DNA of 64,000 nucleotides from Antedon bifida (Eukaryota; Echinodermata; Crinoidea; Comatulida; Antedonidae). A program made the position numbers and the translations under genes. Under the pieces are notes generated by a model. The model was given only the letters and a program-made list of their open reading frames with translations. It was not told the DNA's origin and searched no databases. Each line of letters opens with the position of its first letter. Within the stretch, counting starts at the first letter, position 1. Where the stretch lies: NCBI GenBank assembly GCA_963402885.1, contig OY727098.1:3281001-3345000 (forward strand), in the 5' to 3' direction. This document shows positions 11,941 to 63,984 of this stretch, in pieces.

Positions 11941-12064
11941 GTGGTCTACTAAAACTATGAGGACAAACACAAACAACAGTTTATTAATGGAGTTACTAGC
12001 AGTATCAATAATCATTCTAACAGCAGGGGTAGGATCGTCATCATCAAGTACAGATACACGATTG
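11941..12064 (+). CDS. THSD4-like exon 1 (coding): signal peptide
   Basis: Coding starts at ATG 11957; 11941-11956 would be 5' UTR if TTGTAG before it is an acceptor. The 36 codons begin MRTNTNNSLLMELLAV and continue with a hydrophobic stretch (SIIILTAGVG) and a Ser-rich tail, a typical signal peptide. A second in-frame ATG at codon 11 could also serve as start. The donor is TTG|GTTAGT, phase 0, matching the phase of the next exon. Confidence 0.75.
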
Positions 12065-15000: not shown

Positions 15001-18000
15001 AGAGAGTCTATGTAAACATAAACAATGAGATGCACGTAGACGGTAGTTATCGTCAGATGAGCGGCGTTTTATTGTAAGAAATATTCTTGTTTAAACTACT
15101 AAAAGCATAAAAATTGAGATAGTAAATAGGTCTATAATTATTTTATATTTCCAGATTCGACGTGAGCGATCAATCACAGGGAGGTCATCATCATTCTGGG
15201 GAGATTGGGGTCAGTGGTCAGGCTGTTCTCGGTCATGTGGGGGAGGTGTAGCGTCGCAAGTTAGGCCGTGCTTACGACGGAGACGTTCAGGGTAAGTATA
15301 GCCTAGGCCTAAACAGAAAAAAAGACAATACTTAAATACTTTTAACGTTGATTATTGAAAATGTATTACATTTATCGAAAATGGTTAAACTATATTCAGA
15401 TTTACAAATAATGTCATTGAGTCCTGGTTACCTTTTATCCTGCCTCATAGTGCGTGCAGGTTCCTCTGCTTAAACTGGTTTGCTCATAAATGGAATAGGG
15501 CTATTTTACGCATTATCTATTCTAATGGTATTATGTTAAGTGCTGTACCTTAATTAGCAAGTAATTAAAACTAGCATTCACACATAATCATTTAATACTT
15601 TATAATTGAATTTATAATAATTCATTTTTATAAAAAAACATTTTTAGAGGGCGCTATACTTTCAACATAAATAAGCACTTACTTCAACTAACATTATTGT
15701 AATACAGTATTCTTACTTGCCCGGGAAACTGGGGCAACACCCCTGCCGTCCATCCCTGCATTTTACATTTCTTTATTAAATTCATAAAATGAAATTTGTT
15801 TTTTCATCTATTTTGTTACAATATTTTTCATAATTCTCAACTTTGTTAATTCTAAGCATATAAAGGTTTTGTATTTTAAATTTTGGTTTAAAAAAAAAAT
15901 TAATTAAAAATGCTACTAATCTATAACAAACAAATATTAATATTTCAATAATTGATTTATTATAGGGCAGTAGGAATGGGTCATCATTGTGTTGGCCTTT
16001 ACAGGCAGTACAAGCAGTGCAATACAAAGGTATGATCTATATATAATTATGTTCAAATAGTATTATACTTTTCCAACTTTTGATTGGTTGATTTTGTATC
16101 ATGTGCCATGCATTATTATCTTCAATTTCGACAATTGAAAGTACTATTGCATAGTCAGCTTTTTAATAAATATTTTTGAGAATTGAAATAAGAGAAATAA
16201 TAACAAGTCCTCTTTTATTTTAGCCTTGTCCAAATGGAAGCAAGGATTTTAGAACAGAGCAATGTGAATCATACAACAATATTCCTTTTATGGGTCAACT
16301 TTATGAATGGTACGCATTTGTAAAAGGTAAGACGATTTGCTGTTTGGTTTAACTGAAATTTAACGGTCATGCTGCTTGTCTAGCAATCTAAGTGTGCTGG
16401 GTTCAAATCCTGTAAGATGTCAGGATTTTTTTTCTAAAAAAAAAATTAAACCACTCCACTCCCAATACTTTGTTCATTTAAAACTATAATGTCATTCTTG
16501 CCCAATAAAACAATCAACAAAACAGTTTCCATTATAAATAAACACAGTAACCACTACTTAAACAATACATACAAAATAGTTTTGCTAAACAACAATAGCG
16601 TTTACCATAATTTTCCAAAAAGTTTTAATTATGTTGTTTAATATTTAAACTATGATCTTTTGTAAATCTTTTGTAAATTATATTTCAGAGCCAATGGTTT
16701 GTGAGTTACATTGTAGGGCTAAGGGTTACCATTTCTATGCAAAGCACTCTGATAAAGTTGTTGACGGTACAACATGCAGGACAGGAGACACAGATGTGTG
16801 TGTAAATGGAATGTGTAAGGTAGGACAATCAAAATCTTTCTATAAAACACAGTTAAAAAAGGTTGCCTAAAAGTTTTCAAACTGCAAGATGTCTTTAATC
16901 ATGTTATGCATTGTCGAGGCAAGAGCAAGTCATAGTCTAGACCATAGTTTTGGTGGTAGGTAAAGACTGGAGGGCCAGACGACACATATTATGGCTTGTG
17001 TGTACTTTAATGAACCCATTCAGTTGGAATAGTAAAGCTTACCCCGATTTCCTGGTCAATCTCGACCCCCCTTGTGTATAGACAAATGAGTACCATGTGA
17101 TGGCAACTCAAAATGGACACTAGAGAGTTGTTGTATGTCCAGTATCTATTCCAATGTGCTTTGAGACAGTTATCAATGTAGAAAAGGTCATCATAAATAT
17201 GAATCCACTATACATGTAAGATCTCCACAATTGGAATAAATCATGTTGACACATAAGGAACTTCAGTCAATTACCTTACAACAAATTTTATTTACAATTT
17301 AGTAGTTTAACAGATCAGTGACTAATATGACTAAGGTAATTGAACTTTTATGTGTTTTAAACATTGCTCGCCAATTTTGTAGTCAATATGAAACCTTTTG
17401 GGCTTTTTATTGGCATAAAGGTCTCAGTTGCAAAGATTTGGAGACTAGATTTTAAAAACAAAGAATTATCAACTTCAGAAACAAAAGTTTTAAGAAAAAC
17501 ATATTACACTGTTAATGCAATGGATTTATTTTAAAGTGGAAATATGCGGCATTGCTGACTCACAGGCTTTATCAGGTGTTTTGTATTACCAAAGTGATTT
17601 GTATACTGCCCTCTATAGTTATGTAAAAGTTTATGAATACCTGAGTGACTTGCTATTACTCATCACCTCAAAATAGAACGAAAGAAACGACTTAATAATG
17701 CTGGGAGTTGATTGCACTTCCTGTAAGCTCAAGTTATATCACTTTGACATTTCAAGGTTTGTAAGTTCAATAAAAAGGTTTAAATAGTTGTAAATATAAT
17801 ACCCTTTATGATAATATACACCAAACACCAATAAAGTGAGGAAATAGCTTGCCTAATCTTTGTCAAATTTGTGAATGTACCCTAAGCTCTGTCTACACTA
17901 TCAAACTAGTTAGACAAAAAAAGTTGGCCCATTATGACATCATCATGTCCATATATGGGCACATCACATTTGATACTGCAGACAGAGCTTTAGTCTGTAT

Positions 18001-29100: not shown

Positions 29101-32100
29101 TTAATATTGAGTGTATTTGTTTTGTGTGTGTATGTGAAAGAATTCTGAAAATGTTTTTATTTCTATATACATTTGATGTGCACGTTTTTAAATTGGCCTG
29201 GGTTCAATACTGTCGAGCAAACTTGTTTAATCTTTGTAAACATTTTCATTCAAGAAATTTATAGTATTATTATAAATAGAATATAAAGCAGAACATGCTG
29301 AAATGTACATAGCTTTCTACTACATAAGCTTTCAGATCCCTTGGTTCTCCTTATTGTTTACCTCCGTGATTAAATGGAAGAATTGATCCATTGGGAGTTG
29401 GAACCTAGGGATATGGGACAGACGAATTATCAACTGGAAAGTATGATTGGGGAAAGAGGAGGGTGGGGAAAATGAAACGGAGACAAATTTAATAAAACCC
29501 TGTTATTAAATAATTAAAGTATCAACATACTTGAGTCTACTTCATACACAGTAAGTTCCTGTAAATAAACAAAAAAGAACATTGTTGTTTATGAAGTTTA
29601 AATTGTGATGAAACTTTACAAAAATATAATAGAATCTAGACTTAATAACCATGAGTTCATTCAATTTATTTTGAGAATTAAGTTTTATGTGGATTTTATT
29701 TCATTTTTTCATTTCATTTATTTATTCGACACAAGCGGTCCAGGGGTTGCGACAGCAACAGAGCGCCATAACACATTTGTGTCCGCAACCCCTGTAACAT
29801 ACAACTTAATACAAGTTAAAAATGAATAAAAAAATACAGATTATATTACACAATTTAAAATACACCTAAACAATTAAAATAAAGTTATCGATTATCAAGC
29901 AGATATATTTTCAATTTTGACAGAAAATTTTTCAAAGGAAGAGTAACTGCTTGATCTTTGATTATAGGGGGTAGTGATGACCATATAACAGGAAAATTGT
30001 TGATAGACGAATATTTTAAAGTATCGGTACGTGCAAAAGGGTGTGTCACGCCATACACACTACTTTTTACACACCTGGGAATATCATAAAAGATCTTACT
30101 TAATATCTTAAACTAAAATAGTTATTGAGGATATCTTAGCCAAGAATTTTTCTTTCTAACGTATAATAAAATTTTTAAGTGAAATTTTTAATTTCCGATC
30201 TTCTTTCGAATTGTGAAAATGCTTTATTGTTTTATCATGTACAACAATTTCTTGTTAATTCTGGAAGATTTAATTGATGTTTCCGTTAGTTTTTTGTTTT
30301 AAAATGTTGTATTTGTTAATCTGAGGCGCCTTGAAGCTAAGGTAGTCCCACCTTGTGAGGCCCCTCTGTGTAATAACAAAAACAAAAAACTAAGATATCT
30401 TTATTTCCGAGTTTGGCATGCCATACACAAACATGTACTGTAGGCATACACACCTGGAAATATCCTTCCTACTGAGTCTAATGAGATGGGGAGACAGGAT
30501 GACACAAATGCTAAAGTATTAAAACAGTCAAGTCCTTGTAGAATTAGCAGAGGTTTAAGAACTAACAGCAACCTATATTTGGCTTTCTTTACAGAAACAA
30601 AGCCTGCCAAGTATCTCCTATGACTCTCTGTGAGAACTAGAACAATACAATTATTTATGACTTAGACTAATTACTTTGGTAATGAACTTCAAATGTAATT
30701 ATAAAGAGGTTTTCACATTGATTGAGTCATTTAAAGTATAGATAAAGATAGAATGTAGATAAATGTAGGTTGTAAATCAGTTGTGTTGTATAGCACTGTG
30801 TAAATTATATATAAATCATACTGTAAATTATTGAAACAGTGCTCATATTCAAAACATGATCTCATAATCGCGTCGAGCATAGCTCATTGGCGAAAGTTCC
30901 ATATTTTTTAGTTGTATGAAAAAATCTTTGTGGTACCAAGTCATCCTAAGGAGAGCAGGATTTATGTATTGTTTTTATCATACTTTTTATTATAATCATT
31001 ACTATTTAAAGTTTTTTATATTAATATTTTTATATATATACATGTTTTAATATTTTAATTGTTTTAACTGAGCAAATTAATTTTTATGTATGTTAGTATT
31101 GGGTATGTTTCTAAATATTTATTGATGCATGTCTTCTCTTTTATATATATTGTTTTTATTGTACTTTTTATAATAATCATTACTTTGTAAAGTTTTTGAT
31201 ATTAATATTTATATATATATACATATTTTAATTGTTTTGTCACTGAGCAAATTAATTTCTCCTTTGGAGATCAATAAAATTATTCTGATTCTGATTAATA
31301 TATTTATTAATTTATCCATTAAAACACAGTAATAAAATTATTTTTAATTTAGTAAGAATTTGTAAAATTTGGTCATAGCGCAACCTGTTTCACACCTCTG
31401 CGTTAGTTAGTTAGAAATTATTTTTGTTCACTAAACCTACAAATTGTGTACAAAACAATGCTAGTTATGTTCAGACGGGCTTAAGTCTGATGTAAAGTTA
31501 CATCAAACATGAAATGGTGCGTCTACACGACTCTAGTTCGCTAGCGTGTAACTTTGCATTCCTTGTGTATGCGGAAGTCTTCTCGGGAATAACTTGTCTG
31601 TAGTAAGGTTGAAGTAACCAGGGCTTACAAAAAGCAAACTGCTACTTCAAGGTTTACTTCCGACTCATCTGAATATCTCTATTGTTCATTTTTTTTCAAG
31701 AAGGTAGACAAATCTTCTGTAGCCCTATATAATATATATACAAATACAGTTTTCAATTGTGTTTATAGTAGTGTAATAGTATAACTGAAATGAACTAAAC
31801 TTATTTTGGATACCATAAAAAACATCCCTAATTTGAAAATGTAGTAGTCCACATCTTTGTGTATCAAGTTTAAGTACAAAGTGTATGCACTTCTGAAGCT
31901 TTGAAACTCTTACATAATAGTATCCAATTTGCTAATGTCATATTGACCAATCAGAAACAAAGTGGGTGTGGCCAAGTATACAGGTACAGACAAACTTCTT
32001 AGACATGACAACCCTAAATGTGAAGTGAAATATCTGTCTGAATAGTTGTTACACAGAAGTCTATTGTAGAAAGTGAGAAGATTTGTTTAAATTTTAGAGA

Positions 32101-35100
32101 AAAGTTATTCTAACTGTGAATTTCTTATTGTGTGGTTATATACGCTTGTCAGATAGGGTGCTAAATATGAAGATATTTTACACGTTGTTTCTTGCTTTGT
32201 TCTTGGTGGCTGCAGAAATCAATGCTCAGGTAGGTTCAGTATCTTTGTCAGGTGTTCTGTTTTGATTTCAAATGCTTCGTAATCTAATAAGCTTAAGTAG
32301 GATTTTGAAGTGTGTTATAATTTACGCTGACCACATCATAGGAAGTCTCTTCGATGAGAACCATTTGTAGGTTTTTATTTACTTATAAACTTATGTATAC
32401 ATAATGCAATATTGATTTTTTTTATTTTGATTTAATTAAACTTAAGATGTTTTGTGTGGTTATATGTATTACATGCCCACTGTAGATTGTATTGGCACAT
32501 TGTGTACAAAAATATTATATTTTTAAAACATCTTCACAAAGCATGGTTCCCACTAGAGACGCAACGCAAGGATGTAGATGCAATGAAAGTGAGTTGACCA
32601 ATGGAAAGTTTAAAAAATCCATCACCTTTGGTCTAATCACTTGTTGTGCTTACGTCCTAAATAAATAAAAAAAAGGCGCCCCAATCGAGATCCGAACCTG
32701 GAATCTTCTGCTTGATATGCAGACAGAAACCGGTCTGGTGGTGGAGTTTGTATCTACGTAAAAAATGAACGCGCCTTCACACGTAGAAATGATCTGGATA
32801 TCGACAATTTTGAAGCAATATGGATAAATATATATCTGCCTCGTTCAAAGGAAATTGTGATTGGTACATGCTACCGCCCACCAAAACAGAATGTAACTTT
32901 ATTTCAGAACAACTTTGAAGAAACTGTATCAAAAATCAAAGAGAGTAGTGAAATTTATATTCTTGGTGACTTTAACATATGTACTTTAAATATTAATCCA
33001 GTATCGCAAAGATATAATGATTGCCTTATAAGAAATGGTTTTAGTAATGTTATTAAGGATATAACTAGAATAGGAAAAGAAAAAAGCTCATGTTTGGACC
33101 ACATTGTTACTAATGTACAAAATAATGTGAAGCAATCTGGAGTAATTAACATTGGCCTTAGTGACCATTTTCTTATTTATTGCACTAGAAAAATACCTAA
33201 GTCTCATGTTCATAAAAATGAACACAACTCCGCAAAATTACGATCTTTAAAAAACTATAATGTAAATAACTATCTTGAAACACTTAACGATATCGATTGG
33301 TCTGTTGTCACTAATAATGTCGATGTAAATATCGCGTGGTTAACTCTTAAAGATATCATCATTAAGGTGATCGACTCAATAGCGCCAATAAAAAAAGTTA
33401 GACTTAAACAAAACATAGCACCCTGGTTTACCTCCGAAATTGCCGATGAAATCAAAGTAAGAGACACACTTTTAAAACAATTCAAGAAAGATAAATCTAA
33501 TCTAGATATATACAAATATTATTGTGCCTCTAGGAACAAAGCTCAGCGGCTGATCAAAAAAGCTAAATCTAATTATTTTCTCAATAAGATTGATGAAAAT
33601 AAAGACAACCCTAAAAAATTATGGAAAACCCTCAAACAGCTCGGATACGAGAAGAAATGTAAAACAAACACTAAAATCGTTCTCGATGACAATGGTAAAC
33701 AAACTTTCTGTCCAAAAGGCGTTGCCTCTCGTTTTAATGAGTTTTTCACGAATGTTGCGTCAACACTCGTCAAAAAACTCCCAAAATGCATAGGTCTTTT
33801 CACCATGTCCACTAACGATCTTCTTAAATACTACGTTAAATTAAAAGGAAAAATGTTTAAGCTAGAGCCTGTTACCATAGAATTTGTTAAAACTCAACTC
33901 GAAAGCCTAAATGTAAACAAAAGCGTCGGTCTAGATAATATTCCCTCAAGATTCTTACGTGACGGTGCGATAATCTTGGCTGAACCGATAGCTCATATCA
34001 TTAACCTTTCGTTTAAAACTAATTGTTTTCCTCATGATCTTAAAATTGCTAAAGTTACCCCTCTATTTAAGAAAAATACTAGAACAAATGTTGAGAATTA
34101 TCGGCCGATTAGTATTCTGCCTACGGTATCTAAGATTCTTGAAAAATCTGTAGCTATACAAGTTGAAAGGTATCTTTCCAAAAATAATATACTTTATGCC
34201 TATCAATCCGGTTTTCGGCAGGCCCATTCAACTGAAAGCAACCTCATAAATCTCATCGACGGTTTAAAAAACAATAAGTCCAAAGGCCTTCTTACTGGAA
34301 TGGTTCTAATTGACTTACAAAAAGCTTTCGATACCGTCGATCATGTGATTTTAATTAACAAGCTAAAATGCATGGGTTTTAAGTGTACTGACTGGTTTCA
34401 ATCTTATCTCGCTAACCGCACACAAGTTGTCAGTGTGAATGGTACCTGCTCTGAACCTCTTATAGTTACTCATGGTGTACCGCAAGGTAGCATCTTGGGC
34501 CCTATTCTTTTTCTATGTTATTTAAATGATATTGCTTCTTGTATTGATTCTGATGTTCAATTATTGCTTTATGCTGATGATTCTACGATTCTGTATTCTC
34601 ATCACGATGCCACCAAAATCGCTCATAAATTAAGTACTGTCCTAGCTAAGTGCCAGGACTGGTTAACTGAAAACAAATTATCTTTACATGTTGGCAAAAC
34701 CGAAAGTATTATCTTTGGTAGCAGAGCGAAGCTTAACAAAGTAAAAGAGTTTTCTGTAGAATTAATGGGCCGTAGAATCAAAAGTACTAAGCAAGTTAAA
34801 TATTTAGGTATTGATTTAGACCAATATGTATCATGTGATATCATTGCAACTAGTGTTATCAGTAAAGTTAAGTCAAGGTTGAAGTTTTTACATAGGCAAA
34901 GTTCGTGCTTGAATAAAAAATGTCGTAAACTATTAAGCACTGCTTTAATACAATGTACATTTGACTATTCTGCCTCGGCATGGTACGGCGGTGTCAATAA
35001 GAATCTTAAACATAAATTACAAACTGCCCAAAACAAGATGGCACGTTTCATTTTAAATGTTGGTCCGAGGTCTCACATAGGTGCCAAAGAGCTTTCCGAT

Positions 35101-38100
35101 CTTGGGTTTCTTAATGTCAGCCTCAGAAATAAGTTTTTAAGATTAAATTATGTTCACAAAATTCGTTATAACTTTAATACGCCTTCTTTCCTTAAGGATA
35201 ACTTTTTGTTAATTTCTGATCATCACAACCATTTCACCAGGGGTACAACATTTAATTTTGTCACTCCTAAGGCTACTGGCGTTAATGATACGACTTTTTA
35301 TTTCTTAGGTATCCGTGACTGGAACAGGCTCCCCAATTCACTCAAATCAATACAAAATAATGCAACCTTCAAAATAAAACTTAAAGAATATTTTAATAAT
35401 GAACAGCTTGGTATTTCAGTTTAATTAAGCTATTTTTAATATTGTTTTTTTGATGTTTTCTTGTCTTGTATGTATTTTCTTGTTTTTTCATTTTTACTGA
35501 GTCATACTTAACGATAATTGTACTAGGCCCAACCACTCACTTTTCAGTCATTACGGATTGGACCCCATTGGAAATAAGTTTACTTTTTTGTCGACTTAAT
35601 GGGTTATCCAGGTATTCTTTTTATACATTGTATATTTTAACTTTTATGTATGAATATCAAATAAAATCAATCAATCAATCCTGCCATTCGACCACTGGGG
35701 CTTGAATGGTATAATACAATTTGACCTTATCAACAACTTGTACAAACTTTCTAAAATTGATTTTACTCTAAATTTAGAATTTTCCATGAGTACTTTAATA
35801 CCATCTATGGATATTACTACCTCATAATGAGGCTAATGATGTAGTTCTATTTATTTGTAATAAGAAATCCTAACATATTTTCACTCATCGAAGCTTCTAT
35901 TGAAAGATGGGAAACATGTTTCCTCTCACATCTTTCTTTCACATCTTTCTCTCCAATTAAAAACTATTAAATGTCCATACAGTAAATTATGATGAGATTG
36001 TTATATTATTACACAGTCAACTTTCACAATACAGATACCTTAAATTTGGACCAAAAAAAATTTGTAGGAATTTTTATTTTGACAGGTGTAAGAAAATGAA
36101 TATAAAATATGTTATTAATATACATAGACAGATAGTCTTAGTTGCACCAAGCAGCTGGCATAAATTTAGACAAGTTTAGTCTAGGCTGAAGATACTGTAG
36201 GAGTATACATTTTCATTGACTCTTATACCTCTTTAAAGCTGGGCTTTCACATTTTCTAGAAAAACTCTGGACCGAACACACCGGGATTCACACCATACAA
36301 TACTTGGTGTTGACGCCGCTGTGTGTGCATACTAGGCAGCAACGTGAAAGGGGTACACAGTTTTAGTACAATGTCTGTGATTTTTTTTAGGTAGAATATT
36401 ATATCAACATGTCAGGAATTATTATTTTGACATCAAGCCATTTGAATTAGAAAATGATACTGAAAAATAGGCTATTGACTTTAATCTAAATTAAAGAAGC
36501 TAATGATAACCCACACTCTCCAGAAACATTAATATTTGCAGTCGGAACTTAATTCAATGTGGGCGGCTTTTAAAATTGTGACAATTTGTAAAACTTGACA
36601 ATGATCCAACAATGATAAAATTCCAGTGTTAGCCTAGATTTGAGAGGAAATATTAAGGGATTGAGACAACAGGTGTTTTGTTGAGATATTCTGCACTAGG
36701 GTTTATCTAAAATATTTAATTATGGGGATGTTTTAAGAGAAAGAAAGTTTAATTCAGTTAAAGGAAGGTTTTAATTAATTATCAGTCTTCAAATTAATAT
36801 TTTACTCTGCATAAAATCGTTAGGTTTTAAGCAGAAAATAATATATTGGAAGTTTTTCCAGAGAGTTTCATCAACGTATTGAAACAGTTTGTTTATTACT
36901 TTTCTACAAATAATAATAGACAATGGTTTTCATTTCTTGTAATTAGTTGCCTGATTCTGCCATGAAATGCAACTCATTTCAAATAACCGGTAAATGGCAC
37001 CCCGCTATAATGTTTAGTAATTAGAAATTCAAAATATTAATTTGTTTGACCTTGGATAAAATGATGTTGGGCTCACTTCTTCACGATTGTTGCCTCAAAA
37101 ACCACACACAGAGAAATCTTCATCAATGTTATACTGGAGCGTTCAGCAACATTCAACAACATTCAGAACTTTAAGTAAAAAAGTAAGCTACATGCCTGAG
37201 AGATACTGTACATGCCATCATGTTTTAAATTAAAATGTCCTCATCAATAGACTGTCATCATCAAGAATTTACTTGGATGATACAGTATTATAGGCCTGTT
37301 TAGTACCGGTAGTCATAATGTCAAATATTACATCCTATTGCAAAGTGATGTAGCCACAAGAATTAAATTAAAGTGCTCCGGTTTTCGCAAGACAACAAGC
37401 TCTGTTCAAGCCACTGGGTTGTCAAAGGTTGTTGTGAAAAAGTAGTCAGGTTGAAACCTTACCAACCGTACTGGTGGCTAAAACAGTTTCTTTTCACGGA
37501 GAACTGTTGATACGGAATTATATAAGAAATAACTTGAATATTAAAAATAAAAATCCTGGTATAATTTTCAGTAAACTGTTTTTCAAGGACATATTAACTG
37601 AATTTTTGTTTGTGTTATTCCTAATTTGTCAGTTCTTCACCAATTATGTCAAAAGTTACAAAGTATGCACGTAATCTCAGTGGGATTTTAAAGACTGTAA
37701 TTGGTCTCAACACCTATGTGGTATGCCTATCCATACTCCCTAAACAGTATACTGGGTATATGCTTGTTTCATTACACACCTAAAGAGGGGAATATCATAG
37801 TTGGCTTCAACTTGTTTATAGCATGTTCCATCCATAATGGAATTATGCCACCATGGGGAAAACTTACAATTCCTGGCCATGACCCAATGGCCAAAAAATT
37901 ATTTAACATGATAAAATTCCTATCATTTTTATTTGATTATTTGACACTTTGTTTATAATTAATTTAATTGATTTTTAATTTTATTATTTACTAAGAAATT
38001 TGAAATATTTTTTAAATTAAATATTATATATAATAAAAATCTGTCAACCTGAGTTGCCTTAAACCCCAGCCATAATAATTGGCACAGATTCAAGGCACTC

Positions 38101-62100: not shown

Positions 62101-63984
62101 GTTAATTAAGATTACTAGAAACCTACCTCAACAATTCTTCACCTGTTAACATTAACAATGACTTGACATTTATTGCATTATAATGTTGCCTAGGGATTGT
62201 CACTTACCATTTGGTGTTGATGTGACATCATGAGTGTAATGTCACTATGGATTATGTGATAATGCATATAACATGTTTTAACATTGTAGTGCATTGATTG
62301 AAATATTCTCTTCCCAGGTATCAAAAAGGTTTTTTTAAAGGTCATAATTAGGTGAGGGCTTTCGATGTGTTTTACCAGGGGCGAGTGAAATTACATTGTA
62401 ATTGAAATTCCATCTTTTCTCTTTTTTTACAAAGCTATTTAGAAATAGAAATAAGTGACACATTTTTGACAATAGTACATATAATAGTATAATAGTATAA
62501 TAATACAAAATAGTATAACTGCACATATCCACCAAAATGCTCAAGGTGCTTGTGGAAAACCAAGGGAAAACTAATCCGTAAACCTAAAAAAATAGACAAA
62601 AAACTCACATAAAGTTGCATTCCTTTTACCAGCAATTTAAAATGCATATATCATCTTTAATATTCAGCTAGTTAGTTATAGATATATAAAACAATAATTA
62701 TGCTAAGTTTCTTGCTAAAGGCCAATTTACACAGACGAGCGGTAACGGTAATAACAATATATTATCTATGTTTAAATTCCTTGACCATTTACACACAACA
62801 CGGAGTGGACGGGCAGTTTCCGCTCAGGATAGATACAGTTTTTATGTGGGACAAGCTTTACAAAGAAACAAGATTTCCCATTGTCATAGGCCTTCATGTT
62901 ACTGTATATTTTTTTGTTTTTCGCTCTTTAAAATGATTGCTTTATTTTGTAAGGATATTGTATTGGTAAATAATCTTTAATAAATTTCTATTTATAGAAA
63001 GTTGGATGTGATGGTGTTCTTAGTTCTGGTCTTGAATATGACAAATGCGGTGTATGTGACGGCCACAATACAGCTTGTGAAGTTCACACAGGAACGTTTA
63101 ATAAAGTTACAATGTCCGTGGGTTATAATGATATAGTCACCATACCTGTAGGAGCTATGTACATAAATATAACAGCTGCTAAGAGCATGAATTACCTTGG
63201 TAAGTTACAATAACATTTTTCATTGTCCAAAAAAATTGTATATTTAACACCATTTTCAACTAGAATATAATGGGTTTTTTTTACACACTTAAATAGCTTA
63301 AATATAAAAAAATATTCTTTTATTTAATTAATGTAATGGCATTATTGTCACAGGAGCACTTGTGTAAAAATGTATCAAATTTAAGCAAAAATAAATAAAA
63401 ATATAAACAGCTGTAAAATTATTGTATACAATTCATTTCATTGATTTTGTTAAAAGATTTAATGAGGTTGAGATAGTAAAAAAGAGGCCACGCACTTCTA
63501 TGCATTTGGAAAAAAACGCTAATTTTTTATCTTATTAATTCTCATTTGTATTTATTTTTTCAGCACTAGCAGACACAAATGGTGAAACCTACATCAATGG
63601 TAACTGGCATATAGATACAAACGGTAACTACCCAGCTGCAGGCACAATGTTCCAATACAAGAGAGCATCTGTTACAGCTGGATCTGGACAACAACTTATA
63701 GCAGAAGGTCCTACTGATAAAGATCTTATAGTTCAGGTAGGTAGAATATAGAAAGTATTATACAAGAACTATACTAGAATCTTTGCTCGCATGCATCATA
63801 CTATAGATAAATACTTATTATAGTCTATCTTCTACTTTTTCAGCTGATATTTCAAAAAACTAATCCTGGAGTTGAATATGAATATGTTATTCCAACTGAA
63901 ACTCTACCTACTACTGTCAAGCCAACAACAACCACTGAAACTGATGCTCCTCTAACAACTTCTCTGCCAAAAAATAAACATGAG
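11957..63984 (+). CDS. THSD4/ADAMTSL4-like secreted matrix protein (gene overview, 5' part)
   Basis: Eight coding exons join in phase to a 353-residue N-terminal portion; the gene runs off the right edge. Order: signal peptide (residues 1 to about 31), TSP1 repeat (about 50-108), ADAMTS cysteine-rich module (about 112-205), spacer (about 206-322), then a Thr/Pro linker. There is no metalloprotease or disintegrin domain, so it is ADAMTS-like rather than ADAMTS. Segments YRQYKQCNTK, SYNNIPFMGQLYEW, DKCGVCDG, NYLALADTNG, INGNWHID and GTMFQYKR match the THSD4/ADAMTSL4 branch from memory. Family members are secreted glycoproteins that bind fibrillin-1 and microfibrils. Assignment to this branch is strong; a one-to-one orthologue claim is not made. 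A 46-kb intron splits the cysteine-rich module. Confidence 0.88.
12263..12337 (+). mobile_element. Element family E, copy 3 (short)
   Basis: It begins TAGTCGCGCGTGCAACGCGA, carries a (GGTC)n tract at about 12292-12313, and ends AGCACGCGACT. It is shorter than copy 1 because most of the interior is missing. It lies 200 bp inside the first visible intron of the THSD4-like gene. Confidence 0.6.
12338..15154. other. Intron 1 of the THSD4-like gene
   Basis: AT-rich intronic sequence with no further coding exon seen. Short open frames at 14656-15077 lack splice context. It ends with a good acceptor, ATATTTCCAG. Confidence 0.6.
15155..15291 (+). CDS. THSD4-like exon 2: TSP1 repeat core
   Basis: 137 bp, entering in phase 0 after acceptor TTTCCAG and leaving with two bases before GTAAGT. 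It encodes a basic linker and the start of the TSP1 repeat. FWGDWGQWSGC holds the W-x-x-W-x-x-W array known for C-mannosylation, and CSRSCGG fits the O-fucosylation site of TSP1 repeats. It ends in a basic run, CLRRRRSG. In vertebrate THSD4 the TSP1 repeat carries a long insertion at about this place; here it is compact. Confidence 0.9.
15966..16029 (+). CDS. THSD4-like exon 3: end of TSP1 repeat
   Basis: 64 bp between acceptor TTATTATAG and donor AAG|GTATGA. It completes a Gly codon with the previous exon and reads AVGMGHHCVGLYRQYKQCNT, the second half of the TSP1 repeat with its conserved cysteines. YRQYKQCNT is typical of the THSD4/ADAMTSL4 branch. It leaves in phase 0. Confidence 0.9.
16224..16326 (+). 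CDS. THSD4-like exon 4: start of cysteine-rich module
   Basis: 103 bp, acceptor TTATTTTAG, donor AAAG|GTAAG, leaving one base. It reads PCPNGSKDFRTEQC and then SYNNIPFMGQLYEWYAFVK, the family's conserved entry to the cysteine-rich module (pattern D-F-R-x-x-Q-C and F-x-G-x-x-Y-E-W). Confidence 0.92.
16366..16440 (+). repeat. Possible tRNA-derived SINE fragment
   Basis: GTGCTGGGTTCAAATCCTG contains a tRNA B-box-like sequence (GGTTCAAATCC). It is followed by T-rich then A-rich runs. No complete cloverleaf can be drawn. It lies just downstream of exon 4. Confidence 0.3.
16689..16819 (+). CDS. THSD4-like exon 5: cysteine-rich module
   Basis: 131 bp, acceptor TATTTCAG, donor AAG|GTAGGA, phase 0 exit. 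It reads EPMVCELHCRAKGYHFY, then KVVDGTTC and DVCVNGMCK. These are the C-E-L-x-C, V-x-D-G-T-x-C and V-C-x-x-G-x-C signatures of the ADAMTS cysteine-rich module. The next module residues (KVGCDG) are encoded 46 kb downstream, at 62998. Confidence 0.93.
16820..17882. other. Start of the 46-kb intron
   Basis: AT-rich intron with no exon or clear repeat recognised. Confidence 0.5.
17883..17992. mobile_element. MITE family B, copy 2
   Basis: The left end TAAGCTCTGTCTACACTATC and right end CAGACAGAGCTTTA are inverted repeats. The core carries CATGTCCATATATGGGCACA, which recurs in copies 3 and 5. It is 110 bp, non-coding. Confidence 0.85.
18407..18554. mobile_element. MITE family B, copy 3
   Basis: The left end TAAAGCTCTGCTACACTATC and right end GATAGTGTAGACAGAGCTTA are inverted repeats, with GTGATGTGCCCATATGGACA and CACTACCATATTTGGG inside. 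It lies only 0.4 kb from copy 2. Confidence 0.88.
19263..19470 (-). pseudogene. LINE reverse-transcriptase C-terminal relic
   Basis: On the minus strand the frame reads GKIEGRRSRGRKRVTWLASI and then LNMAIDRELWHNMIAKMS. The pattern G-R-x-x-G-R-x-R-x-x-W and D-R-x-x-W-x-x-M is typical of the C-terminus of RTE/jockey-like LINE ORF2 proteins. A short local duplication of AGTTCTCCAGACCTCCC lies at 19439-19477. It is a relic without the catalytic part. Confidence 0.6.
19533..22360. other. Intronic sequence, no recognised feature
   Basis: AT-rich sequence with no exon or transposon that I can support. Small open frames are random in appearance. Confidence 0.5.
22361..22564. mobile_element. AT-rich fold-back element (family G)
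   Basis: Long imperfect inverted arms: GTTGATATAGTTTGC at 22375 pairs with GCAAACTTTATATCAAC near 22530-22546. Further in, CTGTTGAGTTTGTCAATGTT and TTGATCAATATA pair with TATATTGATCAA and GTTGAGAAACTCAACAG. It is about 200 bp, non-coding, and a single copy in this window. Confidence 0.65.
22565..27297. other. Intronic sequence with simple repeats
   Basis: No exon seen. TAGGCCTA occurs at 22999 and 23540. A poly-T run lies at about 26090-26114. At 25560-25665 a GGACCCCTTGATATCAGCTG phrase followed by CTCTCTAAATAAAG and an AAATAAAATAA tail looks like the 3' end of a CR1/L2-type LINE; support is weak. Confidence 0.4.
27298..27641 (+). mobile_element. MITE family F, copy 1
   Basis: About 344 bp with terminal inverted repeats: AAAGATGTATTTTCCCCC at the left and GGGGGACAATACATCTTTAA at the right. 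Interior phrases AATCCATTGGCTGGTAGCCA and CAATTTGACCATTTTTTGC recur, reversed, in copy 2 at 39028-39350. It is non-coding, with TTAA/TA-like sequence at both ends. Confidence 0.8.
27642..29699. other. Intronic sequence, no recognised feature
   Basis: Very AT-rich. No exon, RNA gene or clear repeat that I can support. Confidence 0.5.
29700..30096 (-). pseudogene. LINE 3' end relic (ORF2 C-terminus and tail)
   Basis: On the minus strand, 30096 to 29885 reads IFYDIPRCVKSSVYGVTHPF, then RTDTLKYSSINNFPVIWSSL and LKNFLSKLKIYLL before a stop. The F-P-x-x-W-x-x-L-P and L-K-x-x-L arrangement matches the end of non-LTR reverse transcriptases. The 3' UTR holds a hairpin (AGGGGTTGCG pairing with CGCAACCCCT) and ends in an ATAAATAAATGAAATG tail at about 29702-29730. 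It is strongly 5'-truncated. Confidence 0.65.
30097..30965. other. Intronic sequence with possible LINE tail
   Basis: At 30325-30375 GGCGCCTTGAAGCTAAGG and an AACAAAAACAAAAAAC tail resemble a LINE or SINE 3' end. Otherwise no feature is recognised. Confidence 0.35.
30966..31300 (+). repeat. Tandemly duplicated LINE 3' end
   Basis: Two diverged copies of an AT-rich 3' region, 30966-31086 and 31147-31300, share TAATCATTACT, TATTAATATTT and CTGAGCAAATTAATTT. The second continues to TCCTTTGGAGATCAATAAAA and ends in a repeated ATTCTG tail, the style of L2/CR1-type LINE ends. Confidence 0.55.
31301..32166. other. Intronic region upstream of the internal signal-peptide exon
   Basis: No coding sequence. 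If the exon at 32167 is a first exon, its promoter and 5' UTR would lie here. TATATAATATATATACAAAT near 31721 and GTGGTTATATACGC near 32132 are TATA-like but unproven. Confidence 0.3.
32167..32229 (+). CDS. Candidate alternative first exon with signal peptide
   Basis: Twenty-one codons begin at ATG 32167 and read MKIFYTLFLALFLVAA followed by EINAQ, an excellent signal peptide with small residues for cleavage (VAA or INA). The exon ends CAG|GTAGGT, a strong donor, in phase 0. It sits inside the 46-kb intron on the same strand as the THSD4-like gene. The next downstream exon, at 62998, needs a phase-0 partner, so joining them would keep the frame and give a secreted isoform that lacks TSP1 and the first half of the cysteine-rich module. 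It could instead start a nested gene whose other exons I do not recognise. Confidence 0.6.
32538..32658. mobile_element. MITE family A copy (right end missing)
   Basis: It begins GCATGGTTCCCACTAGAGAC and continues GCAACGCAAGGATGTAGATG, matching the 2-3 kb cluster. The family core (TTGACCAATGG and CTAATCACTTGTTGTGCTTA) is recognisable, but the right terminal GTGGGAACC is absent. It directly abuts the decayed tRNA-like sequence. Confidence 0.7.
32663..32724 (-). pseudogene. 3' part of a decayed tRNA-like gene, split by a LINE
   Basis: Reading the minus strand from about 32726 to 32678 gives an anticodon-like stem-loop (TCTGC, loop ATATCAA, GCAGA), a five-base variable region, a T-loop TTCGGAT with a poorly paired stem, and an acceptor half TTGGGGC. 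Immediately downstream is TTTTTTTT (32667-32674 on the plus strand as A's), which fits a Pol III terminator. The 5' part lies at 35680-35701, beyond the LINE. The anticodon position reads ATC, but decay makes the isotype uncertain. A tRNA-derived SINE head is the alternative. Confidence 0.5.
32725..35680 (+). mobile_element. 5'-truncated non-LTR retrotransposon (Jockey/CR1/L2/Rex-like)
   Basis: A LINE copy starts within the endonuclease domain and runs to a 3' tail of ATCAATCAATCAATC near 35666-35680. About 2.95 kb remain. The single long open frame and clean tail suggest a recent insertion. It lies in the sense orientation in the 46-kb intron and interrupts a tRNA-like sequence. The 5' truncation is typical of target-primed reverse transcription. 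The clade is not settled by eye. Confidence 0.9.
32731..35424 (+). CDS. LINE ORF2: endonuclease (partial) and reverse transcriptase
   Basis: The frame is open from the insertion boundary (reading RSGGGVCIYVKN) to a stop at 35424, about 897 codons; there is no true start codon because the 5' end is lost. The N-terminal part is the C-terminal half of an AP-like endonuclease, with GDFN and a later SDH motif. The reverse transcriptase follows: YRPISILPTVSKILEK, DLQKAFDTVDH, GVPQGSILGPILF and the catalytic YADDSTILYS. The C-terminal region ends with FYFLGIRDWNRLPNSLKS. It mediates target-primed reverse transcription in this family. With the endonuclease incomplete this copy is unlikely to be autonomous. 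Confidence 0.92.
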   Translation, partial: RSGGGVCIYVKNERAFTRRNDLDIDNFEAIWINIYLPRSKEIVIGTCYRPPKQNVTLFQNNFEETVSKIKESSEIYILGDFNICTLNINPVSQRYNDCLIRNGFSNVIKDITRIGKEKSSCLDHIVTNVQNNVKQSGVINIGLSDHFLIYCTRKIPKSHVHKNEHNSAKLRSLKNYNVNNYLETLNDIDWSVVTNNVDVNIAWLTLKDIIIKVIDSIAPIKKVRLKQNIAPWFTSEIADEIKVRDTLLKQFKKDKSNLDIYKYYCASRNKAQRLIKKAKSNYFLNKIDENKDNPKKLWKTLKQLGYEKKCKTNTKIVLDDNGKQTFCPKGVASRFNEFFTNVASTLVKKLPKCIGLFTMSTNDLLKYYVKLKGKMFKLEPVTIEFVKTQLESLNVNKSVGLDNIPSRFLRDGAIILAEPIAHIINLSFKTNCFPHDLKIAKVTPLFKKNTRTNVENYRPISILPTVSKILEKSVAIQVERYLSKNNILYAYQSGFRQAHSTESNLINLIDGLKNNKSKGLLTGMVLIDLQKAFDTVDHVILINKLKCMGFKCTDWFQSYLANRTQVVSVNGTCSEPLIVTHGVPQGSILGPILFLCYLNDIASCIDSDVQLLLYADDSTILYSHHDATKIAHKLSTVLAKCQDWLTENKLSLHVGKTESIIFGSRAKLNKVKEFSVELMGRRIKSTKQVKYLGIDLDQYVSCDIIATSVISKVKSRLKFLHRQSSCLNKKCRKLLSTALIQCTFDYSASAWYGGVNKNLKHKLQTAQNKMARFILNVGPRSHIGAKELSDLGFLNVSLRNKFLRLNYVHKIRYNFNTPSFLKDNFLLISDHHNHFTRGTTFNFVTPKATGVNDTTFYFLGIRDWNRLPNSLKSIQNNATFKIKLKEYFNNEQLGISV
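35680..35701 (-). pseudogene. 5' part of the decayed tRNA-like gene
   Basis: On the minus strand 35701 to 35680 reads GCCCCAGTGGTCGAATGGCA and two more bases. GCCCCAG can pair over all seven positions (one G-U) with TTGGGGC at 32678-32684, forming an acceptor stem. GTC and the GG in GAATGGCA fit a D-arm. The two parts total about 71 nt, the length of a tRNA. Confidence 0.5.
35702..39027. other. Intronic sequence, no recognised feature
   Basis: AT-rich sequence. The open frames at 37474-37958 show no family motif or splice context. The segment 36235-36345 (GGGCTTTCACATTTTCTAG onward) is more GC-rich and could be a fragment of an unidentified repeat. Confidence 0.4.
39028..39350 (-). mobile_element. 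MITE family F, copy 2 (inverted)
   Basis: About 323 bp, the reverse complement of copy 1. The ends are AATGTATTGTCCCCCTGAAA and TTTTTGGGGGACAATGCATC. GCCAGCCAATGGATTTTTGG and AAGCAAAAAATGGTCAAATT match copy 1 reversed. The two copies could pair in the pre-mRNA across 11.4 kb, enclosing the LINE and the internal exon. Confidence 0.8.
39351..42501. other. Intronic sequence with weak repeats
   Basis: No exon seen. At 39820-39860 an ATAATAATAATAATAAAAAT run next to TGTCCATTTCTATACC looks like the reversed 3' tail of a LINE or SINE. Two near-identical 27-bp phrases (GAAATACCGGAATGGTGTCC and GAAATACCAGGATGGTGTCT) lie at about 41673 and 41733. At 41840-41875 an AATAAATTGACTTGACTTGA tail resembles a LINE 3' end. 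Confidence 0.4.
42502..42633. mobile_element. MITE family B, copy 4 (left end worn)
   Basis: The right end GATAGTGTAGACAGAGCTTT is intact. The left end is reduced to TACTACACATCAAACTTTAT. The core has CACTACCATA twice and AAACTAGTTTGATAG. Confidence 0.8.
42638..42705 (+). repeat. LINE/SINE 3' tail
   Basis: GATGCGCTTAGAGGCTCTGT followed by TTAGCGCTATATACAGTAAG and TATTATTATTATT is the style of the 3' end shared by L2-type LINEs and their SINEs (GCGCTATATAA with a trinucleotide tail). It lies directly next to family B copy 4. Confidence 0.5.
42706..49470. other. Intronic sequence with local duplications
   Basis: No exon seen. A 31-bp unit (GTCTCGTGAAATACAGTAAG followed by TCTAGTAGAAT) is repeated about 2.5 times at 43611-43690. 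A diverged ~80-110 bp duplication shares ATAGGTTGTTG, TGTTATAGAGATAC and ACCCT at 43234-43352 and 43391-43474. An (AAAAT)n tract lies near 48086-48110. Confidence 0.5.
49471..49625 (+). pseudogene. LINE ORF2 C-terminal relic with GAT tail
   Basis: The plus strand reads RPKGRRKTTWMANIKKE, the pattern x-G-R-x-x-T-x-W-x-x-x-I of LINE reverse-transcriptase C-termini, then a stop. The sequence ends in GATGATGATGATAT, a short microsatellite tail typical of RTE-like elements. Only the extreme 3' end is present. Confidence 0.55.
50140..50265 (-). mobile_element. Deu-type SINE fragment with tRNA head
   Basis: On the minus strand GCAGTATGGCATAATGGTAA carries an A box and GGCATGGGTTCGAGACC a B box. The body CTTAGACAAGATACACTTGC and GTCCCTTGGATGGGACAT matches the start of the Deu domain seen in the fuller copy at 61 kb. 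The rest is missing; an ACCAACCAACC microsatellite abuts it at 50124-50142. Confidence 0.65.
50314..50481. mobile_element. MITE family B, copy 5
   Basis: The longest copy, 168 bp. Both ends are clear: TTAAGCTCTGTCTACACTAA and GATAGTGTAGACAGAGCTTA. The core includes GTGATGTGCCCATATATGGA, two CACTACCATATTTG phrases and CAAACTAGTTTGATAG. Confidence 0.9.
50482..51826. other. Intronic sequence, no recognised feature
   Basis: AT-rich sequence with a (TAG)n tract at about 51486-51505. No exon seen. Confidence 0.5.
51827..51926. mobile_element. MITE family B, copy 6
   Basis: A short 100-bp copy: AAAGCTCTGTCTACCCTATC at the left and GATAGTGTATACAGAGCTTT at the right, with AACTAGTTTGACAACAAAAT inside. 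It lies 0.4 kb upstream of the DIRS1-like element. Confidence 0.82.
52332..52489 (+). repeat. DIRS1-like left inverted terminal repeat
   Basis: 158 bp beginning TAGCTTACCTGGATGAACCG and ending ATACCTCACCATT. It is the exact reverse complement of 57529-57686 by base-by-base reading. About 14 bp of unique element sequence lie outside it. Confidence 0.95.
52836..54362 (+). CDS. DIRS1-like ORF1 (Gag-like protein)
   Basis: 508 residues from ATG 52836, which has a good context (TCACCATGC); the frame is open slightly further upstream without another ATG. The N-terminus is a Cys-rich zinc-finger-like segment (CVACGG, then CLSCRDC and CEVC). A Pro-rich repeat based on IPVIPPP follows, then acidic and helical regions, and an Arg/Gly/Pro-rich tail that suggests nucleic-acid binding. 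In DIRS elements the first ORF is taken to be the Gag-like nucleocapsid protein; function here is inferred from position and composition. Its 3' part overlaps the open frame of ORF2. Confidence 0.8.
   Translation: MPKMACVACGGPRATIKWDKHTKCLSCRDCSQADPCEVCVRWPPARFAALPARAEKTSPIPESSAEAPPLPPIPVIPPPIPVIPPPIPVIPPPIPTVTPPYVGQNTSGQAPAEQQFDLSPAFLQAVAAAVRALPKDGPPPVPYMQPPPTVLLPTPEPEDVDMEDDEALVSFSDCDDSAGAPGLQTLVNRVVPAVLSYLGVDYAYKEATPLPEYKRFTTFGVRTPVRHARTSPIVPLEPELLERLESVAREPPRRPAPAEFATVFPVPPAHFEEVLRSPPIPDAAKGRAREDQGLESTRTVFLDPTAAKTEEALTACDKAARETLRVLSMAGYLLSFLADPERPKELDPGVITLLQQITGLAADQQASVALTANAARRVNLLQATDIAPGHHKRFTTVESFRSTDLFFGTFSQREDKWAREREVRRETRARFPQKRVASQSRSQRGPPRGPPPPPLQPAPVRPTHQHVPPQPAAQATGASSSQPFRANPTRGGASRGRRRDRRRYARRR
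53051..53113 (+). repeat. 21-bp tandem repeat within ORF1
   Basis: Three copies of a 21-bp unit starting GATCCCGGTAATTCC encode a Pro-rich IPVIPPP heptapeptide array. The copies differ by only a few bases, suggesting recent expansion. Confidence 0.85.
53953..56385 (+). CDS. DIRS1-like ORF2: reverse transcriptase, RNase H, methyltransferase-like
   Basis: The frame is open for 810 codons from ATG 53953; the true start is uncertain because the first ~170 codons overlap ORF1. The reverse transcriptase has LNLKSLNKRYI, SIDLKDAYFHVPI, LPFGLSTAPRVF and catalytic YLDD near residue 361. RNase H follows with TTDASETGWGG (about 527) and HIAGRLNTVADALSR (about 625). The C-terminal part, VDLFATARNTQLPTYCSRF to APYWTRQSWFPLL, matches the DIRS methyltransferase-like (Dam-type) domain. 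It copies the element RNA to DNA. Its end overlaps the recombinase frame. Confidence 0.9.
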   Translation: MPHAELICCKRRISRPAIINALLPLSRFGLRTYSLARSPSGRINGRANERFVGKRARASLRSVLLLNHDLKGAPRGGHLRHLSSRLRCVPRINMYHLNLLRRPQVRLLHSPFALTPPAVGHRGAVVAIDDDTRGVDDARGRSTPSGGSGRSTPSGGSGRVGGRLREFGGAWDSLLQADSWVCATVQEGYRIEFTATPVPGTISHTRIPSDPQMRGALLDGVSDLLRKGAVVPVDARHAPPGHESTMFLARKSSGGWRPILNLKSLNKRYIRPARFRMETLSTILLGLRRGDWAASIDLKDAYFHVPIFEADQRWLRFRISNQIYQFVALPFGLSTAPRVFTRVVRALAAFLHRHGIRIHMYLDDWLVVAQSRDQLLRNIDFVLDATERVGFLINRDKSCLLPTQYPQYLGARINLNTCVAHPTAARVVSAQAALAGLLASSAPTVFDWLRTLGFLASFVDLLPFCRLRMRPLQIHLLAFYRPASDSIDKVVPVSPFVATHIRWWLNTKTLTAGRSFVRSTPDIRITTDASETGWGGHSETQHASGLWSHSEARHHINILELWAVQRTLKALKASVQGRHVLIRSDSTTVVAYINREGGTRSPTLCCHTWTLIHWCIAHKITLTAAHIAGRLNTVADALSRPLLCPTEWQLSPRIATLIFHHFGRPLVDLFATARNTQLPTYCSRFQEAQAWQMDALSISWDGLWAYAFPPISLLPLVLSHVHRHHCRVLLVAPYWTRQSWFPLLYSLLYDHPLQLPVRADLLSQGRAHLSLTNIRSLRLTAWPLSGIASESLAYQMARPPWRPSPDENRR
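54375..54427 (+). repeat. Tandem pair of perfect hairpins at the ORF1/ORF2 junction
   Basis: Two copies, 27 bp apart, of an inverted repeat in which GTCCACTCCC pairs perfectly with GGGAGTGGAC around a 6-nt loop (54375-54400 and 54402-54427). They begin 12 bp after the ORF1 stop and lie within the ORF2 frame, where they encode an RSTPSGGSG repeat. RNA hairpins here might influence translation of the next ORF; this is inference. Confidence 0.75.
56169..57320 (+). CDS. DIRS1-like tyrosine recombinase
   Basis: 383 residues if started at ATG 56169. The same frame is open much further upstream, but that part is a shadow of ORF2. The N-terminal half is a core-binding-like region (STLTVYNSRLKHFFRWC, GYRSAIAAILPALPDG). 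The catalytic half shows the tyrosine recombinase residues: Arg in SSCRRRGELHALSL, H-x-x-R in MHQVRGMAASWAL, a Trp/His position in AAWWRSHTTF and the Tyr in FTAFYLQDL. It integrates a circular DNA intermediate without target-site duplication. It overlaps ORF2 by about 217 bp, as is usual in this family. Confidence 0.88.
   Translation: MVPTPLQLTVRPPPATTGPCGPSIAGQSTSLTNKHPIPAPDCLAIVRDRLRESGIPDGPAALAAKSRRESTLTVYNSRLKHFFRWCAEKNTDPRTASLGLICDFLFYLFNSGLQPRTIAGYRSAIAAILPALPDGSTISNSSVITHLLRGMHHERPPSSVLLPRWDINVVLSALTRAPFEPLHNASLYNLTLKTAFLVAASSCRRRGELHALSLEPGHIRFERGGVRLTFRRGFLAKSQTLHHSPPAIFIPTIAASSSVREDKLWCPVRALKFYVHRTKDVREKLSHLFCVTVPPFGPASKATIARWIIAAIQAGYSASQTPPPAHMHQVRGMAASWALFSGVPLADVLQAAWWRSHTTFTAFYLQDLAQNMAPVAHAVLKPQ
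57393..57491 (+). repeat. DIRS1-like internal complementary region
   Basis: 57393-57435 is the reverse complement of the left end (52318-52360), and 57436-57491 is the reverse complement of the right end (57669-57724). The two are fused exactly, reproducing the circle junction. In the accepted DIRS1 model this region templates the joining of the two ends during circle formation. The match is complete as far as I can read. Confidence 0.93.
57529..57686 (-). repeat. DIRS1-like right inverted terminal repeat
   Basis: 158 bp, the exact reverse complement of 52332-52489. Outside it, 38 bp of unique right-end sequence (ending TTGGTTTGTGTA) complete the element. Confidence 0.95.
57725..59404. other. 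Intronic sequence, no recognised feature
   Basis: AT-rich sequence resumes immediately after the DIRS1-like element. No exon or clear repeat is recognised. Confidence 0.5.
59405..59495. repeat. tRNA-like SINE fragment with two opposed B boxes
   Basis: GGGGGATTCGAACC at the left is a B box read on the minus strand. GGTTGTGGGTTCAAGTCCCA at the right is a B box and T-arm on the plus strand. Between them, GGCAATCATATTGC is a short inverted repeat. It looks like one or two tRNA-derived SINE heads rather than a functional tRNA, since no full acceptor stem can be formed. Confidence 0.45.
59496..60964. other. Intronic sequence, no recognised feature
   Basis: AT-rich sequence. An 83-codon frame at 60028 has no motif or splice context, so I do not call it. 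Confidence 0.45.
60965..61360 (-). mobile_element. Composite 5S rRNA / tRNA / Deu-domain SINE
   Basis: Read on the minus strand, three modules follow each other. 61360-61238 is 5S rRNA-like (CCGAAGTTAAGCAACGTTGG, then GGATGGGAGACCG and GGGTGCTGTA). 61237-61170 is tRNA-like, with A box TGGTGTAATGG and B box GGTTCGAGG. 61153-61012 is a Deu domain (CCTTCGGATGGGATGTAAAG, GTGCACGTTAAAGAAC, TTCGAAAAGAGTAGGGG, CCCGGTGTGC). The 5S-tRNA-Deu order is that described for vertebrate AmnSINE1. Pol III transcription from the 5S or tRNA promoter is expected from family knowledge. The 3' tail is unclear, and this copy is diverged. Confidence 0.85.
61361..62997. other. End of the 46-kb intron
   Basis: AT-rich sequence. 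CCAATTTACACAGACGAGCG near 62723 with CCATTTACACACAACACGGA near 62789 may be a fragment of an unidentified repeat. It ends in the acceptor TTTATAG at 62991-62997. Confidence 0.45.
62998..63199 (+). CDS. THSD4-like exon 6: end of cysteine-rich module, start of spacer
   Basis: 202 bp, acceptor TTTATAG, entering in phase 0 and leaving one base before GTAAG. It reads KVGCDGVLSSGLEYDKCGVC then DGHNTACEV, completing the cysteine-rich module. The spacer begins with GTFNKVTMSVGYNDIVTIP. An N-glycosylation site NIT lies in YINITAAK. Because it enters in phase 0 it can also accept the candidate alternative first exon at 32167-32229. Confidence 0.95.
63564..63736 (+). CDS. THSD4-like exon 7: spacer domain
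   Basis: 173 bp, acceptor TTTTTTCAG, donor CAG|GTAGGT, phase 0 exit. It reads ALADTNGETYINGNWHID, then NYPAAGTMFQYKR and LIAEGPTDKDLIVQ. INGNWxID and GTMFxYKR are hallmarks of the ADAMTSL4/THSD4 spacer. Confidence 0.95.
63844..63984 (+). CDS. THSD4-like exon 8: end of spacer and Thr-rich linker
   Basis: 141 bp, acceptor TACTTTTTCAG, donor GAG|GTAACT, phase 0 on both sides. It begins LIFQKTNPGVEYEYVIP, the conserved end of the spacer (N-P-G-V-x-Y-E-Y-V-I). A Thr/Pro-rich, probably O-glycosylated, linker follows (TVKPTTTTETDAPLTT). Further exons, expected to encode more TSP1 repeats and a PLAC domain, lie beyond the window. Confidence 0.93.

Follow-up and report, generated by a model that had tools for sequence, protein, structure and literature searches.

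The window analyzed here, a stretch of 64,000 nucleotides taken as the + strand of one contig, was found to carry a gene for a protein with an N-terminal TSP1 repeat, an ADAMTS-type cysteine-rich module and a spacer, the remainder of which lies past the window end (Table 1). Profile matches to Pfam differed in strength along the gene. The N-terminal TSP1 was matched by TSP1_spondin (E 2e-4) and TSP_1 (E 1.5e-3), and the segment 16689-16819 by ADAMTS_CR_3 (E 6e-4) and ADAMTS_CR_2 (E 7e-4), all four of these being below the cut-offs, while both matches to the spacer family were above. Past the window end were found: (i) six exons with matches to TSP1_ADAMTS (E 2e-5 to 3e-16, all above the cut-off); and (ii) a PLAC domain (E 2e-10, also above the cut-off), after which the frame ends at 69856. 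Between the spacer and these TSP1 repeats lies the linker exon 64229-66317, a single exon of 2,089 nt that is of low complexity and rich in GGYQPNGGS-type repeats. A metalloprotease domain was not seen in the modelled exons (upstream of 15 kb, the profile search covered one ORF, 14796-15074). This domain layout is that of ADAMTSL4/6 (THSD4), and the spacer region was identical at 73 of 142 positions (51%) to a segment of human THSD4, the sole human ADAMTSL compared. The PLAC domain alone cannot tell these family members apart, as ADAMTSL2, 4 and 6 all carry it (PMC8667168). With an N-terminal TSP1, a cysteine-rich module and a spacer present, and with several TSP1 repeats and PLAC at the C-terminus, the host appears to be an ADAMTSL4/6 (THSD4)-type gene. 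Two further features were noted in the flanking sequence. A second ADAMTSL-like gene, in which TSP1, cysteine-rich, spacer, many TSP1 and Ig-like segments were read by eye, is positioned tail-to-tail with the THSD4-like gene just past the window on the minus strand, where it runs from ~93.6 to 75.8 kb on the scale used for the window. Upstream of the window, at about -11914 to -10934, the + strand has a stop-to-stop ORF of 327 codons that is GPCR-like by eye.

Table 1. Features of the THSD4-like gene and of the internal signal-peptide exon (positions in window numbering)
Feature	Position	Strand	Evidence or remark
Candidate canonical signal-peptide exon, long form	11957..12028/12064	+	Signal-peptide scan; phase-0 junction to 15155
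Alternative candidate leader exon, long form	13851-13973	+	Possible as well
N-terminal TSP1 exon, long form	15155..15291	+	Pfam TSP1 families, weak, below cut-offs; splice sites
Long-form exon	15966..16029	+	Open in-frame model
Long-form exon	16224..16326	+	Open in-frame model
First half of ADAMTS cysteine-rich module	16689..16819	+	Pfam below cut-off; phase-0 donor
Promoter-like cluster: CCAAT (31924), CCAATCAG (31947), GGGTGTGG (31964), TATACA (31977)	31924..31982	+	
Candidate branch site TTCTAAC (32108) with candidate 3′ splice site ending ..CTTGTCAG	32108..32152	+	Acceptor 4.5 bits
Signal-peptide coding exon	32167..32229	+	ATG at 32167, 21 codons, translation MKIFYTLFLALFLVAAEINAQ
5′ splice site GTAGGT after CAG	32230..32235	+	Phase 0, 11.7 bits
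Shared acceptor exon: end of cysteine-rich module, spacer start	62998..63199	+	ADAMTS_spacer1 E 3e-5
Spacer exon	63564..63736	+	Pfam ADAMTS_spacer1 E 3e-9
Spacer end and linker exon	63844..63984	+	In-frame model to PLAC and stop

The two halves of the cysteine-rich module are separated by an intron of 46,178 bp (16819 to 62998) that is of phase 0 at both ends; its upstream exon ends TGTAAG/gtagga (..CVNGMCK) and its downstream exon begins tatag/AAAGTTGGATGT (KVGCDG..), where the slash marks the splice site. Exon 32167-32229 is located within this intron on the sense strand. The junction that the intron interrupts was compared among 12 places of the family in the same genome (a set of ten with this gene among them, plus an ADAMTS10-like gene and the tail-to-tail neighbor), these being the places found by family searches and in neighboring sequence rather than the whole family of the genome. 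At all 12 the acceptor AG stands one codon before a [VIF]GC[DN] motif, and in each of the eight genes with preceding exon sequence the donor is of phase 0 and falls right after C-x. As predicted from those sites, the same intron measures only 111-5,632 bp in seven other genes, compared with 46 kb here. A signal-peptide exon was not found in the same intron of these seven genes, of which five were scanned at a donor score of at least 6 and a signal score of at least 3.5 and two at a donor score of at least 7 and a signal score of at least 4. Since the acceptor is family-wide and such an exon was found in none of the seven other introns, the acceptor looks old and the internal exon special to this gene. 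An internal signal exon as a habit of the whole family was thus rejected, and the earlier proposal that an alternative promoter is an old family feature can hold at most for THSD4-type genes. The tail-to-tail neighbor has a possible internal leader exon of its own (MQTCYIFVLICVVPVVSKNVV.., 85880-85962), with a score at a level reached by chance.

The first-pass annotation had described, within the 46-kb intron and in the sense orientation, an ATG, a 21-residue signal peptide and a phase-0 donor of the form CAG/GTAGGT, and had stated that the following exon enters in phase 0. The former elements are borne out by the sequence and by their scores, and the phase-0 entry was confirmed at 62998. Of the two signal-peptide exons implied by its word "second", the first is less certain than exon 32167-32229, as either of two leader candidates (13851-13973 or 11957-12028/12064) may serve the long form. 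The signal peptide MKIFYTLFLALFLVAAEINAQ is likely to be cleaved after A20, with Ile at -3 and Ala at -1 as read by eye. The ATG, the frame and the donor of the exon are all intact. When scored with a generic matrix, the donor at 32229 reached 11.7 bits, which equals the donor of the THSD4-like gene at 63736 and exceeds six other donors of the gene (7.5-10.7 bits); four donors of at least 11.6 bits are present on the + strand of the intron. The codon score, trained on the THSD4-like gene's own exons, was -0.64 and intron-like, a value that is uninformative for 21 hydrophobic codons. It was set aside as evidence because the exon is too short for it and the training exons are the gene's own. When exon 32167-32229 is joined to the shared acceptor (junction 32229/62998), the frame remains open over 12 exons and 1,265 residues and stops after PLAC, and the predicted product comprises the last part of the cysteine-rich module, the spacer, the linker, six TSP1 repeats and PLAC. 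A secreted isoform starting midway through the cysteine-rich module had been proposed in the first-pass annotation, from phase and position, as lacking TSP1. The open product agrees with the proposed start, while "without TSP1" was wrong, as the six C-terminal TSP1 repeats lie past the window and the N-terminal TSP1 alone would be lost.

The intron also houses repetitive elements. A LINE with one 902-codon frame for endonuclease and reverse transcriptase (32716-35421) lies on the same strand ~490 bp after the signal exon, and a GC-rich element at ~52700-57320, named DIRS-like by inference, has ORFs for a reverse transcriptase and, weakly and below the cut-off, for a tyrosine-recombinase-like protein (GC 0.57 in 52001-56000 versus ~30% GC in the intron). 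On the minus strand at 61239-61359 is a full-length 5S rRNA-like sequence (56 bits), which is probably a 5S-derived SINE, because among the 40 candidates scored out of 786 there are 39 further copies of ~200 bp from this place (61150-61351), each 95-99% identical.

Genes for small secreted peptides also commonly open with a signal-peptide exon and then an intron, and exon 32167-32229 could begin a separate gene of this kind, nested on the same strand with its other exon or exons inside the intron. The sequence between 32230 and 62997, excluding 32716-35421 (the LINE) and 52387-57367 (the DIRS-like element with its edge), holds 24 + strand ORFs of at least 60 codons. Twenty of these were searched against Pfam profiles (four were left out, and shorter ORFs were not searched as such), and the sole match was at E 0.036; a nested known gene was rejected, as these 20 of the 24 eligible ORFs are without a convincing match. 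Outside both transposons, 16 downstream candidates were found in which a phase-0 acceptor of at least 5 bits precedes an ORF of at least 25 codons, including a basic ORF of 32 residues at 39931 behind an acceptor of 8.6 bits. Against such a gene, (i) only the one at 49742 has an in-frame donor of at least 6 bits (7.2 bits, at 49829); (ii) the codon score, trained as above on the exons of the host, is negative for 14 of the 16; and (iii) the candidate at 61248 (codon score 0.20) overlaps the 5S-derived repeat, while that at 39931 (codon score 0.07) has its acceptor within a dispersed repeat, for which reason this peptide ORF was dropped as a mature exon. Overall, we regard a nested gene as the main alternative but an unlikely one; the form that it might still take is a gene for a small peptide with no known domain.

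Whether the exon might be unused today, as a decayed or chance signal-peptide-like ORF beside a chance strong donor, was weighed against simulated sequence. The scan called for an ATG with a donor 15-45 codons on and, between them, a hydrophobic core followed by residues at -3/-1 that suit cleavage, and was applied on one strand to 500 simulated introns of 46 kb (250 from order-1 and 250 from order-4 Markov models, 23 Mb in total). None of the 500 matched both the signal-peptide and the donor score of exon 32167-32229, and one match was found at a donor score of at least 9 with a signal score of at least 4.5, these figures being indicative because the score was devised after the feature was seen. 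Relaxed criteria (donor at least 7, signal at least 4) are more favorable to a chance origin, with 65 matches in the 500 introns or ~0.13 per intron, 9 of the 65 being of phase 0. At this relaxed level exon 32167-32229 was the sole match on both strands of the real 46-kb intron, and it ranks first on the + strand across the 124 kb scanned. Four relaxed-level matches were detected on the opposite strand of the same 124 kb, one of them overlapping a TSP1 ORF of the neighbor in another frame, and some of the scan matches elsewhere are likely to be false. The long form's own leader exon was not singled out by the scan at this level. In a similar scan, MMARGKLSLCMFIGLTILSVML.. was identified upstream of another family gene with a phase-0 donor of 12.5 bits and is plausibly the real leader exon of that gene. 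Decay would be expected to cost an exon its ATG, its frame or its donor, all of which are retained here; an exon that has fallen out of use, or never was in use, is in our judgment improbable.

Copies of the region were sought throughout the genome (315.6 Mb in 27 contigs). A search with 31900-32530 returned one candidate, the window itself, with very common words skipped by the search. In an earlier search, in which 40 of 1,060 candidates were scored, only a dispersed repeat at ~32515-32660 matched besides the window. An origin of the exon from a repeat was rejected, since a search without this repeat returned the window itself alone. Among the contigs of this genome, the mitochondrial one (15,844 bp) appears to have nad4L between nad4 and nad5, with the genes identified by eye; in other echinoderms nad4L lies between cox1 and cox2. 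In its nad1 gene AAA was read by eye as Asn, and T makes up 46.7% of the COX1 strand, near the 44.9% of a published crinoid mitogenome of 15,916 bp (PMC10478607), which points to an echinoderm and perhaps a feather star.

The sequence 5′ of the ATG was examined for elements of an internal start. The acceptor-like site listed in Table 1 ends 14 nt ahead of the ATG at 32167, and an untranslated first exon would lie further upstream if this site is used. Its score is within the range of seven acceptors of the gene (2.5-11.2 bits), yet sites so strong are common here (7.2 per kb), such that the site is suggestive only and was dropped as proof of splicing. In the promoter-like cluster, CCAATCAG is positioned ~220 bp ahead of the ATG and GGGTGTGG begins 17 bp further on. 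Nowhere else in 174 kb of sequence does CCAATCA have a box of the GC or CACCC type no more than 80 bp away. The cluster is likewise suggestive, as its motifs were picked post hoc and two upstream ATGs (32005 and 32018) intervene between it and the start codon at 32167. Inclusion of the exon as an internal cassette in the main mRNA was ruled out because it breaks the frame. From the AG at 32151-32152 the cassette would be 77 nt and read K-I-G-C-stop, and from the next AG it would be 73 nt and shift the frame; thus, the only sensible role for the exon is that of the first coding one. Bases 32153-32164, translated in the frame carried over from exon 16689-16819, read I-G-C-stop, an echo of the family motif [VI]GCD that is probably a coincidence. 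A poison-exon or 5′-leader switch, in which RNA from the main promoter would include the exon, end after K-I-G-C and be degraded, could draw on the acceptor-like site ending at 32152 and on the in-frame stop that follows inclusion, but it leaves unexplained a clean signal peptide that ends at the donor in another frame and is very improbable.

Compared with these alternatives, the best supported reading is that the exon serves as an alternative start of the coding sequence, giving a short isoform that is secreted, and we consider it probable, though by no means certain, that exon 32167-32229 is the first coding exon of such an isoform of this ADAMTSL4/6 (THSD4)-type gene. In favor of it are the open product over 12 exons, the family-wide acceptor, the broken frame on inclusion as a cassette and the long/short pairs published for the family. 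The ORF, the sequences and phases of the two splice sites, the uninterrupted frame of the joined product and the acceptor position throughout the family are direct observations; the steps that would connect them are as follows. A second transcription start, from a putative promoter, would be located inside the 46-kb intron. In the RNA from this internal start, the exon ending at 32229 would be the first coding exon, and splicing over a distance of 30.8 kb would join it to the phase-0 acceptor at 62998, which is constitutive. The start codon would be the ATG at 32167, and the signal peptide would direct the product to the ER and be cut off at the edge of the exon. The resulting short isoform, of 1,265 residues before cleavage, would presumably be secreted; it would lack the N-terminal TSP1 together with the opening half of the cysteine-rich module and would retain the spacer, the linker, the six TSP1 repeats and PLAC. 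Counter to this proposal, the 30.8-kb splice must pass the LINE, the DIRS-like element and the 5S-derived repeat.

The age of the proposed arrangement was approached through the human gene. Human THSD4 is 1,018 residues in length and has a short isoform of 658. In the human sequence, 634 residues were counted after the junction CK/SIGCDD. The difference of 24 residues is the size of a signal peptide, and the junction of the mammalian short form would therefore be at the same codon as that predicted here. This match in protein lengths may be the best case that can be made for a feature that is old and shared, as it would put the human junction at the homologous codon. Even so, it is only tentatively suggested that the internal promoter and signal-peptide exon were inherited from the most recent ancestor that echinoderms share with vertebrates, an origin which we hold to be possible but rather doubtful. 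If true, the ADAMTSL6 alpha/beta switch would be more than 500 million years old and would have been preserved by the intron around it, with its unusual length. Furthermore, if the same truncated form arises from the same intron in an invertebrate deuterostome, the division into two matrix proteins is older than the vertebrates; the present analysis supplies the exact exon junction predicted for this form, between 32229 and 62998.

The alpha and beta forms of ADAMTSL6 reportedly differ at the N-terminus and have the C-terminus in common, as is said to have been described by Tsutsui in 2010. Of the features expected of a short isoform of the ADAMTSL6-beta type, an intragenic first exon with its own signal peptide is present in the crinoid gene as an ORF with a donor, beyond chance by simulation, as a feature of the sequence and not as proof of use. 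The phases and the open product would suit a join to the common part at the boundary of cysteine-rich module and spacer, one codon ahead of [V/I]GCD, a position deduced for the human gene from protein lengths. The existence of long and short forms of mammalian ADAMTSL6 (THSD4), on which the first-pass annotation had drawn, is documented in the literature (PMC10850197). As described there, (i) the alpha form was found in all mouse tissues examined and the beta form selectively; (ii) both mammalian forms promote fibrillin-1 fibril formation; (iii) the beta form binds active TGF-beta and inhibits it; and (iv) variants of ADAMTSL6 (THSD4) are linked to aortic aneurysm (PMC10850197). The crinoid and mammalian cases are alike in the type of gene and in the pairing, predicted for the crinoid, of a long with a short form, which in mouse tissues are expressed differently (PMC10850197). 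They are unlike in that the mammalian isoforms have been described at the RNA and protein level whereas the crinoid form is predicted from the genome alone, and in the very long linker exon of the crinoid gene (2,089 nt). Similarly, the C. elegans punctin/MADD-4 gene is an ADAMTSL gene that yields long and short forms with different synaptic roles via alternative promoters; however, its vertebrate orthologs are given as ADAMTSL1/3, not ADAMTSL4/6 (PMC6920096). The short form of ADAMTSL1 (punctin-1) is a further example of a short form from an ADAMTSL locus, although all that is said of it is that it is a short variant made by splicing, the longer isoform being a predicted one (PMC10850197). 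Set beside these systems, the crinoid locus would be a new site for an arrangement of a familiar kind, of which the depth of conservation is the point of interest.
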